Part shown: positions 26,954 through 34,609 of the stretch, piece by piece | Layout of the letters: each line of letters starts with the position of its first letter | Position numbering within the stretch: position 1 is the first letter of the stretch | Source of the DNA: Candidatus Gastranaerophilales bacterium | Lineage (GTDB): Bacteria; Cyanobacteriota; Vampirovibrionia; Gastranaerophilales; Gastranaerophilaceae | Length of the DNA: 55,622 nucleotides | Direction: 5' to 3' | Assembly (NCBI GenBank): GCA_944326605.1 | Contig: CALVEM010000015.1 | Span: 1 to 55,622, forward strand | The notes under the pieces: generated by a model | What the model was told of the DNA's origin: nothing | The model's input: the letters and a program-made list of their open reading frames with translations, nothing else | Database searches by the model: none | Made by a program: the position numbers and the translations under genes

Positions 26954-27643
26954 TTAACCTCTCAAAAATACATTTTTTATTTTTAGACGTAATTTTGTTG
27001 ATACAAGCTCAAAATCAGAGTCAGAGTAAGTTGATGCAGATATTAATGTCCTATCCAGAGTTTTTGACGGTACAAATTTTTGGAGATAATACCTCTTTGC
27101 ACCTTTTATTAAATCCCCAATTTTATCAAAATCATCAAATGTTAATTGTTCTTTTACAACAGTTGTTCTGAACTCATAATCAACAGGGGATTGCATAATA
27201 ATGTTTATACTTTCCTTAATTTTTTCCGTATCCGCGTCAACTCTTGTAATCGCTTTATATTTATCAAGCGGTGCTTTAATATCCATGGCAATATAATCCA
27301 AATATGGCAAAGACTGCCGTAAAACGTCAGGGAATGTTCCGTTTGTGTCAAGTTTTACCAGAAATTCCATATTTTTTATCTGCTTTATAAAATCAATTAA
27401 TCCCGACTGAATACATGGTTCGCCGCCGGTAATAACAACGCCGTCAAGTTTGCCTTTTCGAGTATTCAAAAATTCAAAAAAGCCGGCACAAGTCCATGCC
27501 GGCTCATTTGTTATTGCAATTAATTCCGGATTGTGGCAATAACCGCATCTGAAATTACACCCACGGGTAAAAACAATTGCACTTATTTTATCAGGATAGT
27601 CCAGAAGAGATGTTTTTTGAACTCCTCCTATTTGCATGGACAT
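26954..27643 (-). CDS. nrdG: Anaerobic ribonucleotide reductase activase (radical SAM)
   Basis: 229 residues. The radical-SAM cluster motif CNFRCGYC (Cys29, Cys33, Cys36) sits in FTRGCNFRCGYCHNPEL, followed by VITGGEPCIQ. It uses S-adenosylmethionine and a 4Fe-4S cluster to put the glycyl radical on NrdD. The start overlaps the nrdD stop by 16 bases, so the two are cotranscribed and probably translationally coupled, under the riboswitch at 29499. Length and motifs are also typical of pyruvate-formate-lyase activases, but the neighbour settles the call. Confidence 0.92.
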   Translation of the reverse strand: MSMQIGGVQKTSLLDYPDKISAIVFTRGCNFRCGYCHNPELIAITNEPAWTCAGFFEFLNTRKGKLDGVVITGGEPCIQSGLIDFIKQIKNMEFLVKLDTNGTFPDVLRQSLPYLDYIAMDIKAPLDKYKAITRVDADTEKIKESINIIMQSPVDYEFRTTVVKEQLTFDDFDKIGDLIKGAKRYYLQKFVPSKTLDRTLISASTYSDSDFELVSTKLRLKIKNVFLRG

Positions 27644-29478
27644 TCCTCTATTTTGAATTCTTTTCTGTCAGCAAATTCTTTCTTTTTACCTTTATTCCAC
27701 TGCTGAACAGGTCTTATGTAACCTACTACACGGGAATAAACCTCACAATTTTCGCCGCATTCAGGACAGGTAAAATGTTCCCCTGAAATATAACCGTGAT
27801 TTGGACATGTGCTAAATGTCGGTGAAAACGTAAAATAAGGTAAACGGTAACTATTACAAATCTTTTTAACCAGATTTTTCATTGTTTCAATGCTTTGAAT
27901 TTTTTCTCCTGCATAAATATGTACAACTGTTCCGCCGGTATATTTGGTTTGCAAGTCATCCTGATGATCAAGCACTTCAAAAATATCATCGGTATAATTT
28001 ACAGGCAATTGGGTTGAATTTGTATAATAAGGATATTTTTCCTTATCAAGTTTTGCCAGCCTGTAAGATGTTCCTTCTCCCGGTGTCGCTTCAAGGTTAT
28101 AGTTATTTCCTGTTTGTTTCTGGAATTCAATAATTCGTGTCCTCATAAAATCCATAACTTCAAGCGCGAACTGTTTTCCTCTAAAACTTCCGATATCCTC
28201 TCCAAGAAGATTTAAACAGGCTTCGTTCATCCCGATTAAACCAATTGTTGAAAAATGGTTCTTCCAATAAACACCAAAACGAGCCTTTATATCCCTCAAA
28301 TAAAATTTTGTATAAGGATATAAATCTTTGTCAGTCAAATCTTCCAACAGGTTACGTTTAATCTCAAGGCTTTCTTTTGCAAGCTCCATTTTTTGCATAA
28401 GTCTTTCAAGAAATTCGCTCTTTGTTTTAGAAATTTCTGCGATTTTCGGAAGATTTATTGTTACAACGCCTACAGAACCGGTGAGGGGATTTGACCCGAA
28501 TAGACCGCCACCTCGATATTCAAGTTCTCTGTTATCAATTCTTAAACGGCAGCACATAGAACGGGCATCTTCCGGCGACATGTCAGAATTAATAAAGTTA
28601 GAGAAGTAAGGAATACCGTATTTAGCAGCCATTTCCCAGAGACCATTAATATTTTCGTTATCCCAGTCAAAATCCTTTGTAATATTATAGGTTGGAATAG
28701 GAAACGTAAATACGCGACCTGAATTGTCGCCTTCCAACATAACTTCAAAGAAAGCTTTATTGAGCATATCCATCTCATTCTGAAACTCTTTATAAGTCCG
28801 ATCCTGAAGTTCACCGCCTATTATAACAGACTGATCAGCATAATAAGAAGGGACTGTTAAATCCATTGTTATATTTGTAAAAGGTGTTTGAAAACCTACA
28901 CGGGTCGGAACATTCATATTAAAAATAAATTCCTGAATTGCCTGTTTAACCTGTTTAAAATCCAGATTATCATAATAGATAAAAGGGGCAAGAAGTGTAT
29001 CAAAATTTGAAAAAGCCTGAGCACCTGCAGCTTCTCCCTGCATAGTATACATAAAATTTACAATTTGCCCTAACGCTGTTCTAAAATGTTTTGCGGGGGC
29101 ACTTTCAATTTTCCCTCTGACACCGGTGAAACCTTCTGTTAACAAATCTTTCAAATCCCAGCCTACACAGTATACAGAAATTATGTTCAAATCGTGAATA
29201 TGAATATTACCGTTAACATGTGCATTTTTAATTTCAACTGGATAAATTTTATTAAGCCAGTATTGTTTGCTTATTTCAGATGAAATATAATTATTCAAAC
29301 CTTGAATTGAATAAGCCATATTAGAATTTTCATTAACCTTCCAATCCAAATTTTTTAAATAACCATCAACAAGATTAATATTTGCATTCCGGTCAGACAA
29401 ATGAGCATCCGACATAAATGCTCTTTTAGCGGTACCTAAATTGACAACTTTGTTGTCATTCAAAATTACATTTTTCAT
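27628..29478 (-). CDS. nrdD: Anaerobic (class III) ribonucleoside-triphosphate reductase
   Basis: 616 residues from the ATG at 29478, which follows GGGAG by 10 bases; an upstream in-frame start at 29520 would lie inside the riboswitch. The C terminus has the zinc-site cysteines (STCPNHG and CPECGENC) and the glycyl-radical loop RVVGYIRP with Gly586. The protein begins almost directly with the catalytic part (NSNMAYSIQGLNNYI), so the N-terminal ATP-cone that sets allosteric control in many NrdD is missing. It reduces ribonucleotides without cobalamin or oxygen. Confidence 0.95.
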   Translation of the reverse strand: MKNVILNDNKVVNLGTAKRAFMSDAHLSDRNANINLVDGYLKNLDWKVNENSNMAYSIQGLNNYISSEISKQYWLNKIYPVEIKNAHVNGNIHIHDLNIISVYCVGWDLKDLLTEGFTGVRGKIESAPAKHFRTALGQIVNFMYTMQGEAAGAQAFSNFDTLLAPFIYYDNLDFKQVKQAIQEFIFNMNVPTRVGFQTPFTNITMDLTVPSYYADQSVIIGGELQDRTYKEFQNEMDMLNKAFFEVMLEGDNSGRVFTFPIPTYNITKDFDWDNENINGLWEMAAKYGIPYFSNFINSDMSPEDARSMCCRLRIDNRELEYRGGGLFGSNPLTGSVGVVTINLPKIAEISKTKSEFLERLMQKMELAKESLEIKRNLLEDLTDKDLYPYTKFYLRDIKARFGVYWKNHFSTIGLIGMNEACLNLLGEDIGSFRGKQFALEVMDFMRTRIIEFQKQTGNNYNLEATPGEGTSYRLAKLDKEKYPYYTNSTQLPVNYTDDIFEVLDHQDDLQTKYTGGTVVHIYAGEKIQSIETMKNLVKKICNSYRLPYFTFSPTFSTCPNHGYISGEHFTCPECGENCEVYSRVVGYIRPVQQWNKGKKKEFADRKEFKIEECPCK

Positions 29479-29498
29479 AACAAAAAATCTCCCAGATT

Positions 29499-29645
29499 TC
29501 CGTGGTAACATCAACTCCAATAAGCATTCCGACTATCTCACCAATTTTGGGAGGTCATGTACAAGTTTTTTAAATATTTGTACAGATGACACGGCTGCGG
29601 TCCAGTGTGGGAATTTCACCCATGCTTTCCTTACAGAAGTACTTT
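29499..29645 (-). promoter_or_regulatory. Cobalamin riboswitch controlling nrdD-nrdG
   Basis: Read on the minus strand it has the conserved cobalamin-aptamer core: GGGTGAAATTCCCAC, then CTGGACCGCAGCCGTGTCA, and later AGTCGGAATGCTTA (complement at 29521-29534). CTCCC within the aptamer (complement of 29549-29553) can pair with the nrdD ribosome site GGGAG (29493-29489), suggesting translational shut-off when B12 is bound. Control of a B12-independent reductase by B12 fits the known logic of such switches. Confidence 0.85.
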
Positions 29646-30637: not shown

Positions 30638-30668
30638 TCCTCTACTTTGTAAAATTAGAGGATTTTTT

Positions 30669-31379
30669 ATGTCAGTAACAGCCTTACAAACAAATAATAC
30701 GCGTGTAGGAACATGTCCGCATGGCATGCCGCTTGGAGCATGTCCGATATGTAACGGAATGTCAGGCGGAGGCGGGATGAAAAAAAACGATTTTTCCGCA
30801 AAACCAGGTGAAATGAGCTGGAATGAATGTGCTGCAATAGGGGCTTTTCTAAAAGCTCAACAAAATGCAAAACTTCAGCGGGAACAGGACGCTCAAAATT
30901 TTGCTCTAAGGGTTCAGGCATTTCAGAATGCTCTGATGACTTCAAGCCAGAAACTTGCTAATATTGCACGGTTTTTCTCAAATAACACACCCGCAATTAT
31001 TTCAAAACCTGTTAATTTTATATTAAATACGGTTCTCGGCGGAACTTTAAAAACAGTTGCAAATATTCCGGCTGCTATCTCAAATACTATACAAACAATT
31101 CAGCAAAAATTGGCTGACATTTCAGACAAATTAACCGCAATGATAGGCGAAATGAAAGCCGCAATTGAAAAGAAAATATCAGATGCTTTTAATGATTTAA
31201 AAAAGAAAGTAAAATCTCTTTTTTCTATATTTCAGCCAATGGATACTGATAATGACGACAAACAAATTGATGAAACAAAAAAAGCTTTTGAATTAAGAAC
31301 ATTTATACACGAGCTTTATAAAAAACTTACTCAAAACAAAAAGGATTTAGAAGAAGATGACAATCAGCCCGCTTCGTGA
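30669..31379 (+). CDS. Unknown protein with CxH-C-xxC motif and long helical region
   Basis: 236 residues; ATG at 30669 preceded by AGAGGA. The N terminus holds a compact Cys/His motif, CPHGMPLGACPICNGM (Cys16, His18, Cys25, Cys28), a plausible zinc site. The rest is mostly helical: a semi-hydrophobic stretch around residues 100-150 (for example ISKPVNFILNTVLGG), then coiled coil and an acidic tail. No known family. The gene overlaps the next one by 23 bases, so it is the first of a tightly coupled three-gene operon. Confidence 0.75.
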   Translation: MSVTALQTNNTRVGTCPHGMPLGACPICNGMSGGGGMKKNDFSAKPGEMSWNECAAIGAFLKAQQNAKLQREQDAQNFALRVQAFQNALMTSSQKLANIARFFSNNTPAIISKPVNFILNTVLGGTLKTVANIPAAISNTIQTIQQKLADISDKLTAMIGEMKAAIEKKISDAFNDLKKKVKSLFSIFQPMDTDNDDKQIDETKKAFELRTFIHELYKKLTQNKKDLEEDDNQPAS

Positions 31380-32838
31380 CAACGAAACACTAAGACAGCA
31401 AAAAAATTTAACAAATTCTCAAAAACGTGCAAACTCCCAAACCAGGGAAGGTGTTCTTGTTAATAATTTTATCAAGGATTGCCCTGATTGCGCTACTAAT
31501 CTCAACAATACCTGTGATACACTTGTTATATCGGAAAACGTAAATATGCCTCGGGGATTGTATGAAAAAAATAACGATACCAACAAAAGTATTCTTCCGA
31601 TAAGTGCATTGTCAATAGGGATTATGGGGGCTGTTGCTCTAATGTCGGCTTTTATCAGACGCAACACGAGAATTAATCTCAAAATTTCTAATGAAAAACG
31701 GCTTCCTGCAACAACAAGAAATGTTGCTCTTAATGAAGAAACTCATCAGGCGTTATACCAGATGATACAAAGTCCTACAAGAAAAACTATTCACGCGGGT
31801 GTCGGGGTTTTAACTCTTACCGCCATGGCATTTATGGGCAAAACCTTCTTTGACGGATTTAAAGAAGTCTGGGTAAAAAAACGCGAAGCAGATATTCAAA
31901 AAAATATGCAGGAACAGCTTATTAATATAGAAACACGATCTTTTGCAGGCAAAATTCAAATAACAAGAAGCATGCTCTCTGAAAAAGCTAAAGAATTCAG
32001 CAGATTTCTCTCGGATGACAAAGACAAAATTCTTCCTAATTTTGGGAAACACCTGCAATTCACCGGAAATAAAACGTATAGTAAAGAAAAATATAATAAT
32101 ATAAATTATTTTCTTCTGGGAGCTGCAACTGTTGCCGGCATAATAGGACTTGGATTTATTTCCCTGAAAAATTTAAGCAAAAGCAAAAATTATCTTGAAA
32201 AAGCCGTAAAAGAAACTGAAAATAAAATTACCGATATAGTAAAAAATTCAACTGATAAAACAAAAGATAACGACAAAAAGCTGCTTGAAGCATATTTACA
32301 ATCAATTGATGCCAAAGAAGACACTATTAAAAAATATTTGGATAATCTTCACTGGGATAAAACAGAACTAAAAGAATTTATAAATAAATTAGTCAAAAAA
32401 TCAAAAACTTCAACAACAAAAGTTAATGAAACTATAGGCGGAGACGGAACGCCGAAACCAACTTTCTATTCGCACGTTGACGATTACAGGGCGTTTTTTT
32501 ACAACTGGCTTTTAGATACGGATAACAGACAGTTTAAACAGCTATTCTTCGGAATTACAGGCCTTACAGCACTCAGCTACGGAGGGAAACTGGCAGGAGA
32601 AGCAATAAAAGAGGTGCAGGTAAAAAAATTAAACGCTCAAACCGAAGTTGATTTGCAAAACAGACTTGTTTCTACGGAATTAAGGAACTTCAAATCAAAG
32701 AAAGACGCTGCAATTCAGCCGCTTGTTGATGAATTTTACAAACAGGTCGATAACGGAAAGCCAAAAGAAGAATTGAAAGTCATGGCTGAAAATATATTAT
32801 TAGAAATCAAAAACGGTCCGCCGTTTGTATATTCGTAA
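31357..32838 (+). CDS. Multi-pass membrane protein with internal duplication, unknown
   Basis: 493 residues. Likely membrane segments are at about 79-101, 145-165, 250-271 and 394-412. Two halves are related: residues 144-214 (ending in FKEVWVKKREAD and a helical stretch) match 394-464 (IKEVQVKKLNAQ and the same pattern), so the gene grew by duplication. An N-terminal CPDC (Cys42, Cys45) could bind metal. No known transporter or enzyme motif is visible. It overlaps the Cys/His protein gene upstream and lies 9 bases before the next gene. Confidence 0.75.
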   Translation: MTISPLRDNETLRQQKNLTNSQKRANSQTREGVLVNNFIKDCPDCATNLNNTCDTLVISENVNMPRGLYEKNNDTNKSILPISALSIGIMGAVALMSAFIRRNTRINLKISNEKRLPATTRNVALNEETHQALYQMIQSPTRKTIHAGVGVLTLTAMAFMGKTFFDGFKEVWVKKREADIQKNMQEQLINIETRSFAGKIQITRSMLSEKAKEFSRFLSDDKDKILPNFGKHLQFTGNKTYSKEKYNNINYFLLGAATVAGIIGLGFISLKNLSKSKNYLEKAVKETENKITDIVKNSTDKTKDNDKKLLEAYLQSIDAKEDTIKKYLDNLHWDKTELKEFINKLVKKSKTSTTKVNETIGGDGTPKPTFYSHVDDYRAFFYNWLLDTDNRQFKQLFFGITGLTALSYGGKLAGEAIKEVQVKKLNAQTEVDLQNRLVSTELRNFKSKKDAAIQPLVDEFYKQVDNGKPKEELKVMAENILLEIKNGPPFVYS

Positions 32839-32847
32839 AGGGGTAAA

Positions 32848-33348
32848 ATGATTTTAAACAGCATAGATACAAATATACAGAGTTCTTATCAACATAATAA
32901 TTATATACCTTGCGTCTCTGCCTGCCAGCTTCCGCAGGGCAGCAGGAATTATGCAATATTTGACCGGAATAAAGTCGACTGTTTTGTGTCTCAAAAAGAA
33001 GCTGCATTACCTTATCTTGCTGATATTCTAATACATTCCAATAACGAAGCACAGATTACAGAAACTTTATACATTATTGACAGGATGGCTGATGAAGGCG
33101 TAAAAGGAATTGATAAAATGTACCCTGTCCTGTCACGGTTTAATAATACGACATCTCCTAACATTCAAACATTTTTAGCCGGAATTTACAGAAAAACTCA
33201 AATACCTGACGCATTCGGACCTCTTGTTAAAATGCTTATTCAAAATTCTCTGCGTCCGCAATCTTCAAATTTTGATCCAAACGAAGAAATCGGAGGCGCA
33301 ATACTATCCTATATTTCAGACCGTTTCAGAAATAATCCACAAACATAA
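32848..33348 (+). CDS. Small helical-repeat-like protein, unknown
   Basis: 166 residues after a GGGG-containing ribosome site 7 bases upstream. After a polar N-terminal 40 residues it is alpha-helical with HEAT-like spacing (AALPYLADILIHSNNEAQIT, then TLYIIDRMADEGVKGID, then FLAGIYRKTQIPDAFGPLVK). No signal peptide or membrane segment. It is the last gene of the three-gene operon and might be a cytoplasmic partner of the membrane protein before it. Function unknown. Confidence 0.7.
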   Translation: MILNSIDTNIQSSYQHNNYIPCVSACQLPQGSRNYAIFDRNKVDCFVSQKEAALPYLADILIHSNNEAQITETLYIIDRMADEGVKGIDKMYPVLSRFNNTTSPNIQTFLAGIYRKTQIPDAFGPLVKMLIQNSLRPQSSNFDPNEEIGGAILSYISDRFRNNPQT

Positions 33349-33457: not shown

Positions 33458-34609
33458 ATGGGAATGGCAGCGTCACAAGCTAGATTTTTAGGGCTGACAG
33501 CCAGAAAAACCAATGTTGAATTTGAAGGTCAGCAAATTAACCAGCAAAGAACAACATTGTCTAACCAGTCTGCAAACTACTACAACGATTTGTTGGGTAT
33601 GTCTGTTCCAGTGCCGCCATCTGTCGATGACTACACTAAAACGGTTTACACTTTTGAAGACGGAGCGTTAACTAATCAGGTTACGGCTATGATTGCACAA
33701 ACTGATGGTTCATATATTGTCAGCTACACAAGACAGTGGAAAGATGATTTCTCTGTTGTCTCTGCTTCTACCAGCATTGTGAACAGAAATAAAAACGGAA
33801 ATGATGATCCGACTGATGACATATACAAAGTGGGAGCGACTACTTTGAGAAATATGTCTGATGCTATTACATATAATATTGACGGCCAAACGGCTTACTA
33901 CAATACCGAGGATAAAAAATATTATTCTACAGCTGATTTTCAACAGGGAACAGATATTGATACTGAAGGAAAAGAAATTAAACTTAACTCAGATGATGAA
34001 TATCTTAACAGTTTATCTACGGATCAGCTAGCTAATTTACAAAAAGAAGAACAGGAATATCTTGAATTACTCAAAGCAAAATACGGAGACGGAGATTATC
34101 TTGTCAGATATATTAAAAACTCTTCTACCGGAGAATATATGCCTTACTTCTACAAATTGAGCGACTTAGAGCAGGCTAACTATGATGATAAAGGTAATTC
34201 GCAATCTAACATTAACTGCTACACTATAGGAGCTGAAACTAAAGCTGAAGAAGTCAAAGCTGTTGAAGGATGCAAACTCGAAAAAGACAGCTCAGGAAGA
34301 TACATTAATATTACTATACCTAGCGCTGACGGACAAACGGAAGTTACTTATGCGCTTACAACAACTACTGTTACTGATCAGGAAGCATACGAAGATGCTA
34401 TGAACCAGTACGAATTCGACAAGCAGGAATACGATCAGGCGATTGATCAGATTAACGCGAAAATTGAAATTATTCAGGCTCAGGATAAAAACCTTGAATT
34501 AAGGTTAAAACAACTCGACACTGAGCAGGATGCTATTCAAACCGAAATGGATGCAGTGCAAAAAGTTATTGAAAAAAACACTGAATCCACTTTCAAAACA
34601 TTCGGGTAA
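33458..34609 (+). CDS. Filament-like paralogue B: conserved ends, variable middle
   Basis: 383 residues. The N terminus MGMAASQARFLGLTARK aligns with MGLAAGQARLLSITSRK of the 24155 protein, and the C-terminal coiled coil (around LELRLKQLDTEQDAIQTEMD, last 45 residues) aligns with its C terminus; the middle, rich in Asp, Tyr and Thr, does not. No Sec signal or membrane segment. Its near-perfect sigma-28 box and the flagellin-like plan point to an exported filament or secreted protein, by inference. The ribosome site (AAGGAAG) is about 12 bases from the ATG, as in its paralogue. A hairpin overlaps the stop codon. Confidence 0.85.
   Translation: MGMAASQARFLGLTARKTNVEFEGQQINQQRTTLSNQSANYYNDLLGMSVPVPPSVDDYTKTVYTFEDGALTNQVTAMIAQTDGSYIVSYTRQWKDDFSVVSASTSIVNRNKNGNDDPTDDIYKVGATTLRNMSDAITYNIDGQTAYYNTEDKKYYSTADFQQGTDIDTEGKEIKLNSDDEYLNSLSTDQLANLQKEEQEYLELLKAKYGDGDYLVRYIKNSSTGEYMPYFYKLSDLEQANYDDKGNSQSNINCYTIGAETKAEEVKAVEGCKLEKDSSGRYINITIPSADGQTEVTYALTTTTVTDQEAYEDAMNQYEFDKQEYDQAIDQINAKIEIIQAQDKNLELRLKQLDTEQDAIQTEMDAVQKVIEKNTESTFKTFG

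Follow-up and report, generated by a model that had tools for sequence, protein, structure and literature searches.

What do three tightly linked genes do when their products match no known family, and what decides when they are expressed? Both questions are raised by a locus of Candidatus Gastranaerophilales that lies within the window, by which we mean the whole stretch of 55,622 nucleotides that was analyzed (Table 1). The open reading frames, read from the sequence, fall exactly where an initial annotation had placed them; the end of gene 1 shares 23 bases with the start of gene 2, and gene 3 follows gene 2 after a gap of 9 bases.

Table 1. Features of the three-gene module and its leader, in window coordinates.
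Feature	Position	Strand	Description or basis
AdoCbl-II cobalamin (B12) riboswitch aptamer, RF01689	30512..30588	+	Rfam cmscan
Hairpin CCTCTA/TAGAGG + T6, directly before ATG	30639..30668	+	read from sequence
Gene 1, 236 aa	30669..31379	+	N-terminal Cys/His motif, Gly run, long amphipathic helical C-terminus
Invariant CPHGMPLGACPIC motif, residues 16-28 of gene 1	30714..30752	+	34/34 relatives
Gene 2, 493 aa, membrane protein with two long helices and internal duplication	31357..32838	+	
Repeat copy 1, gene 2 residues about 128-211	31738..31989	+	
Repeat copy 2, gene 2 residues about 376-461	32482..32739	+	
Gene 3, 166 aa, predicted armadillo/HEAT-like helical repeat protein	32848..33348	+	AF2 model and fold matches

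Are these real genes, and do they belong together? Of 146 genomes belonging to the order, 132 have gene 1 and 132 have gene 2, almost always as a single copy, and at least one of the two is found in 133; chance open reading frames are excluded because genes 1 and 2 are conserved across the order. The 146 genomes are a sample of a larger group in which many relatives are metagenome assemblies, so that an isolated absence may reflect a gap. Among named genomes, a scan yielded 377 relatives of gene 2, and the 80 that were kept are metagenome assemblies, many from the gut and most titled Candidatus Gastranaerophilales, Melainabacteria, Scatousia or uncultured bacterium. The order 1-2-3 on one strand is retained in 79 of these 80 loci, the remaining locus being cut by a contig end. 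Across 50 more diverse loci, our own among them, gene 1 neighbors gene 2 without exception and gene 3 adjoins the pair in 43; the overlap between genes 1 and 2 is seen in 45 of 49 loci for which both starts could be called. The initial annotation had suggested checking co-occurrence and gene order across relatives, where genes lying apart in most of them would speak against a common system; the genes instead stay together. What does vary, from genus to genus, is the set of flanking genes. The next gene downstream, gene 4 (33458-34609, plus strand; start MGMAASQARFLGLTARK...), has no Pfam or NCBIfam assignment over the cut-off. It follows the module at 107-193 nt in near relatives, and similar gene 4 starts are seen elsewhere (for example, L050:11291-13006 and L041:2604-3512); with no module-adjacent match in most distant loci, gene 4 was left out of the operon.

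What controls expression? The operon had been credited with its own promoter and a structured leader. The leader is a cobalamin riboswitch, matching the full RF01689 model (positions 1-81) at 43.4 bits, with the gathering cut-off at 36.5; the promoter is unconfirmed, as a promoter scan found no sigma-70 consensus site upstream of the riboswitch. In a search of its own genome (2.05 Mb, 99.9% complete) with the RF01689 model, the aptamer is the only match. The identity of the riboswitch gives the system a physiological context. Taken as a whole, the initial annotation is supported in part: its proposal of an undescribed system survives; it missed the B12 riboswitch and, as described below, made too much of a CPDC pair and of four membrane segments.

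The hairpin at the start codon is probably the expression platform, acting as a terminator and/or as a mask over the ribosome site. Its 3' arm contains a likely ribosome-binding AGAGGA, and a similar CCTC..GAGGATTTTTT(a)ATG hairpin is found at the start codon in most leaders of the same family. A scan for consensus terminators did not flag the hairpin because its loop exceeds the limit of the scan. We also considered switching by pairing between P1 and an antiterminator as a possible mechanism; a complementarity of 10 bp is present in the window, yet it is not conserved. Among 26 leaders, the longest antiterminator run has a mean of 7.4 versus 5.2 in shuffled sequences, and no conserved pairing was found. 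Cobalamin riboswitches in general act as off-switches. Because the terminator is unflagged and an antiterminator is not conserved, it is from this general behavior that the direction of switching is taken.

Is cobalamin control peculiar to this locus? RF01689 matches occur in 133 of the 146 genomes, in 111 of them over the cut-off. Judged from the best 150 matches, at least 107 of the 132 genomes that carry gene 1 have the aptamer immediately before this gene and on the same strand, and the distance from aptamer to gene 1 among the matches listed has a median of 84 nt (range 27-349). When 16 of the 80 named loci were tested, all 16 had RF01689 over the cut-off upstream. Five of the 25 leaders that lack a listed RF01689 match were examined; three have a class-I aptamer, RF00174, over the cut-off (L034, L051 and L045), L032 has a sub-threshold RF01689 match, and L036 has nothing. 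Since RF00174 replaces RF01689 in three leaders, cobalamin control is kept even with a change of aptamer class.

The company kept by the riboswitch is also informative. Other AdoCbl-II copies in relatives, sampled as 20 stretches, precede NrdD/NrdDG, MetE, and a set comprising a TonB receptor, a FecCD permease, an ATPase and a BtuF-like protein; further copies precede a B12-binding radical SAM protein and an OprB porin. The BtuBCDF-like genes stand under AdoCbl-II in genomes G033, G013, G020 and G009, where permease, ATPase and binding protein are BtuC-, BtuD- and BtuF-like by family and setting and score below the NCBI BtuC, BtuD and BtuF cut-offs. According to excerpts of PMC3766115, biosynthesis, transport of B12 and cobalt, and isozymes of B12-dependent enzymes are the standard classes of the cobalamin regulon. 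Because its sister AdoCbl-II copies precede B12 genes, the module is placed in the B12 regulon of Candidatus Gastranaerophilales, and it is by far the commonest AdoCbl-II regulon member in the order (107 of the 150 matches listed). Judged by sequence family, B12 control of the module is near certain.

Several observations on this regulon deserve mention in their own right. NrdD(G) stands under AdoCbl-II in many NrdJ-bearing relatives (L055, L056, L057, L059, L060, L061, L069, L070 and L071), an arrangement predicted to be a B12-gated choice of two ribonucleotide reductases; the NrdDG of the window (26954-29520) has no Rfam riboswitch match. The OprB-family porin (L062:468-1886, plus strand) is directly behind an AdoCbl-II riboswitch in genome G004, which probably synthesizes B12 de novo. 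Genes for the B12-binding radical SAM protein are found directly downstream of BtuBCDF-like genes in two genomes (L194:5365-6762 and L195:5101-6486, both minus strand) and, in a third, directly behind an AdoCbl-II riboswitch of their own (L053:278-1678, plus strand). The L053 and L195 copies are TIGR04190-like, below the cut-off, and a corrinoid-related role is possible for this protein.

Why would these cells need B12, and from where could they obtain it? The genome that contains the window encodes the adenosylcobalamin-dependent ribonucleotide reductase NrdJ (742 bits, cut-off 400), and profile searches of it found neither a FecCD permease nor a TonB plug domain. It has one TP_methylase, in a 279-residue frame, which we take to be RsmI; with this single TP_methylase, the genome is regarded as lacking corrin synthesis. 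Across the 146 genomes, NrdJ is over the cut-off in 105, and fragmentary matches are found in three others. Nine genomes exceed the cut-off for the TonB plug, and all nine also exceed that for FecCD; a tenth FecCD genome, G015, reaches just 28 bits, and we did not treat it as BtuC-like. G002, G004 and G019 alone have five or more TP_methylases, and all three are without the module. A BtuB-like protein is located near BtuCDF-like genes in L054, L058, L064, L068 and L192-L195, with one plug match per genome, and it appears to be the sole type of TonB-dependent receptor in the order as represented by the 146 genomes.

Set against this background, how is the module distributed? We defined an alternative B12 source as BtuBC or corrin synthesis, the two routes that the comparison covers. 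The 108 NrdJ genomes carry the module in 99 of 100 cases without an alternative and in 3 of 8 with one (Fisher p 2.9e-6, a value that ignores shared ancestry). When NrdJ genomes are pooled by genus, and a single member with an alternative is enough to class its genus as having one, the module is found in 31 of 32 genera without and 3 of 8 with an alternative (p 4.7e-4), and such pooling only softens the effect of shared ancestry. The distribution suggests that the module replaces BtuBCDF and corrin synthesis. The sole NrdJ genome with neither module nor alternative, G101, possibly owes the absence of the module to an assembly gap, and of the seven genomes that have neither, six are also without NrdJ. 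The module and BtuBC are found together in six genomes.

Genomes without NrdJ show no such complementarity, with the module present in 28 and absent from 6 where there is no alternative versus 3 and 1 where there is (p 1.0). What might B12 be used for in these organisms? The NrdJ-less genera g2, g14, g15 and g17 keep the module, and their genomes have an RF01689 match; many of them encode a protein with a PF02310 B12-binding domain, which could represent B12 use. In genus g2 (five genomes), where module and riboswitch are both present, neither NrdJ nor QueG is over the cut-off and PF02310 is weak at best. Two other candidates for B12 use, QueG and an RTPR-type class II reductase, were rejected, each being over the cut-off in 0 of 146 genomes, and a 759-aa match in G014 turned out to be an NrdA-type protein. 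Genome G097 of genus g17 encodes a divergent, shortened NrdJ-like protein of 446 aa (L099:331-1668, plus strand) that matches only parts of the NrdJ profile, namely 150-398 and the C-terminal end; similar partial matches are seen in six other g17 genomes.

What do the proteins themselves reveal? In Pfam and NCBIfam, all three proteins stay below the curated cut-offs, and PHROGs and PADLOC returned weak coiled-coil-type matches only. With the PDB searches described below, these results agree with the initial annotation, which recognized no family in any part; with neither a curated family nor a clear relative of gene 2 found, the designation as an undescribed membrane system survives. Nor do the three proteins contain a recognizable cobalamin-binding, transport or energy-coupling domain, or an outer-membrane part. 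Among the papers listed in a literature search, which included excerpts of PMC3766115, PMC4040986 and PMC6072759, none dealt with the module or described a B12 riboswitch of Gastranaerophilales.

The Cys/His motif for which gene 1 had been singled out is conserved, with CPHG-x5-CPxC invariant in every relative compared (Table 1). Inspection of the sequence by eye shows no evident signal peptide. A profile of gene 1 matched apolipoprotein A-IV among PDB sequences at 1.4e-5, over the amphipathic helix only; we took this match as one of composition and rejected kinship. In gene 2, the internal duplication that had been claimed is real: hhalign aligns the two copies with a probability of 98.2 and an E of 5.6e-14 over 84 columns, versus 0.078 for a reversed control. 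Each copy has a weak membrane segment, which is followed by DGFKEVWVKK...LQE.LI.IET.SF.GK in copy 1 and by GEAIKEVQVKK...LQ.RLV.TELRNFKSKK in copy 2. Four membrane segments had been assigned to this protein. Taking a 19-residue Kyte-Doolittle mean of at least 1.6 as a strong segment, we find segments 1 and 3 upheld (35/35 and 34/35 relatives) and segments 2 and 4 not (8/35 and 3/35); the CPDC pair is likewise not conserved, a CxxC being present in 7/35. Modeling of gene 2 gave, at low confidence (pLDDT 65.7), an all-helical fold in which two helices are about 75 residues long. A search with this model gave a best Foldseek E of 0.22 and a VIA Z of 8.7 to a designed protein, matches that we attributed to the generic helices of a low-confidence model, a reading limited to the families listed in that search; no clear relative of gene 2 emerged from PDB sequence or fold searches. 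The AF2 model of gene 3 is confident (pLDDT 84, pTM 0.78), and its top fold matches are of ARM/HEAT type, with VIA Z up to 11.3 and Foldseek E 0.03 at best, scores to be read knowing that repeats score high by chance. A PDB sequence search with gene 3 gave no match; the predicted structure resembles armadillo/HEAT repeats.

How might these pieces fit together? From regulation, linkage and distribution, we infer a role for the module in transport or capture, and from their anatomy, roles for its parts. We propose, with a probability of roughly 0.5 and as the simplest account, that the module is an undescribed cobamide-acquisition system of B12-auxotrophic bacteria. The three genes would make up a single operon that responds to cobalamin inside the cell, with B12 sensing assigned by sequence family. 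When AdoCbl is plentiful, the aptamer would bind it and the start-codon hairpin would shut expression; when AdoCbl is scarce, the operon would be made, and its product would obtain cobamides for cells that have neither synthesis nor BtuB/BtuCDF. Gene 2 may provide the membrane core; gene 1 may be its partner, either soluble or bound to the membrane, with a CPHG..CPxC motif that binds metal or corrinoid cobalt; and gene 3 may serve as an armadillo-type scaffold. A bolder and more tentative proposal, which we would put at somewhat under even odds, is that an unrelated three-protein machine replaced the TonB-receptor/ABC route for B12 in the order, making this the first cobamide-acquisition system of such architecture, recognized through its riboswitch.

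What else might a B12-controlled module do? Two alternatives are the main rivals to acquisition. The module could do a B12-independent job in place of a B12-dependent one, as in the pairs MetE/MetH and NrdDG/NrdJ, and be repressed by AdoCbl for that reason; NrdDG and MetE are indeed under the same riboswitch class in relatives, and NrdDG is close by in the window. We regard this possibility as unlikely if still worth serious thought, given that the proteins look like a membrane and scaffold set rather than an enzyme, that a B12-dependent counterpart is not apparent, and that the link between the module and absent BtuBC and corrin synthesis would be expected for acquisition instead. Alternatively, the module might handle cobamides inside the cell (trafficking, decyanation, or support of lower-ligand or adenosylation chemistry), with import by another route. 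An invariant Cys/His cluster in a protein with no evident signal peptide would suit such handling, and ligation of cobalt by Cys has a precedent in BtuM (excerpts of PMC6072759). However, gene 2 encodes a conserved membrane protein and overlaps gene 1, and the complementarity with importers points to entry, making a purely intracellular role distinctly unlikely.

Two further possibilities carry less weight. A B12-regulated surface, secretion or competition system (a pore, a vesicle or a contact-dependent apparatus) could aid scavenging indirectly, and the long-helix architecture of gene 2 is consistent with this idea, as is the presence of alpha-helical pore formers among many helical proteins matched weakly and without significance. 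We consider it improbable, as no fold match is significant even at its best, no signal peptide was seen, and the module is single copy in nearly every genome, unlike typical effector sets. Cobalt uptake for corrin synthesis would make sense of the metal-binding-like motif in gene 1, and cobalt transporters are a standard class of the cobalamin regulon (excerpts of PMC3766115); because the module genomes are without corrin synthesis, the only genomes with five or more TP_methylases being module-less, this reading is very improbable indeed.

If the module does acquire cobamides, it would represent a new bacterial way to obtain vitamin B12. The order has a B12-dependent ribonucleotide reductase, and most of its members are without a BtuC-like permease, a TonB receptor and corrin synthesis; the existence of a single conserved, riboswitch-controlled three-gene module makes the question of the B12 source directly testable. 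The finding also has a bearing on how gut bacteria compete for B12.

How, then, does the module compare with known systems? BtuB-BtuCDF, a TonB receptor with an ABC importer, is found like the module under AdoCbl-II in relatives and has the same proposed purpose; however, the two have no sequence relation, and the module is without a TonB barrel or plug, a FecCD permease, an ATPase or a TroA-like binding protein. Among small B12 membrane systems, represented by BtuM and ECF-CbrT, BtuM has an invariant Cys that ligates cobalt (excerpts of PMC6072759), and the Cys/His motif in gene 1 might parallel it. The six transmembrane helices of BtuM belong to one protein, and the Cys is in that membrane protein itself, whereas gene 2 appears to differ from both BtuM and ECF systems in its two strong and two weak segments, its internal repeat and its lack of a profile match, a comparison made with the low-confidence model described above. 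BtuG, BtuH and other accessory B12-binding proteins of Bacteroides were first noticed as unknown proteins in gut B12 transport loci (excerpts of PMC6143338 and PMC8941943); they are surface proteins beside BtuB-type transporters, whereas the module has no BtuB and no evident export signal. Finally, the leader does not differ from the AdoCbl-II riboswitch (RF01689), which it matches at full length over the cut-off. The novelty lies in the genes that are controlled, not in the riboswitch that controls them.
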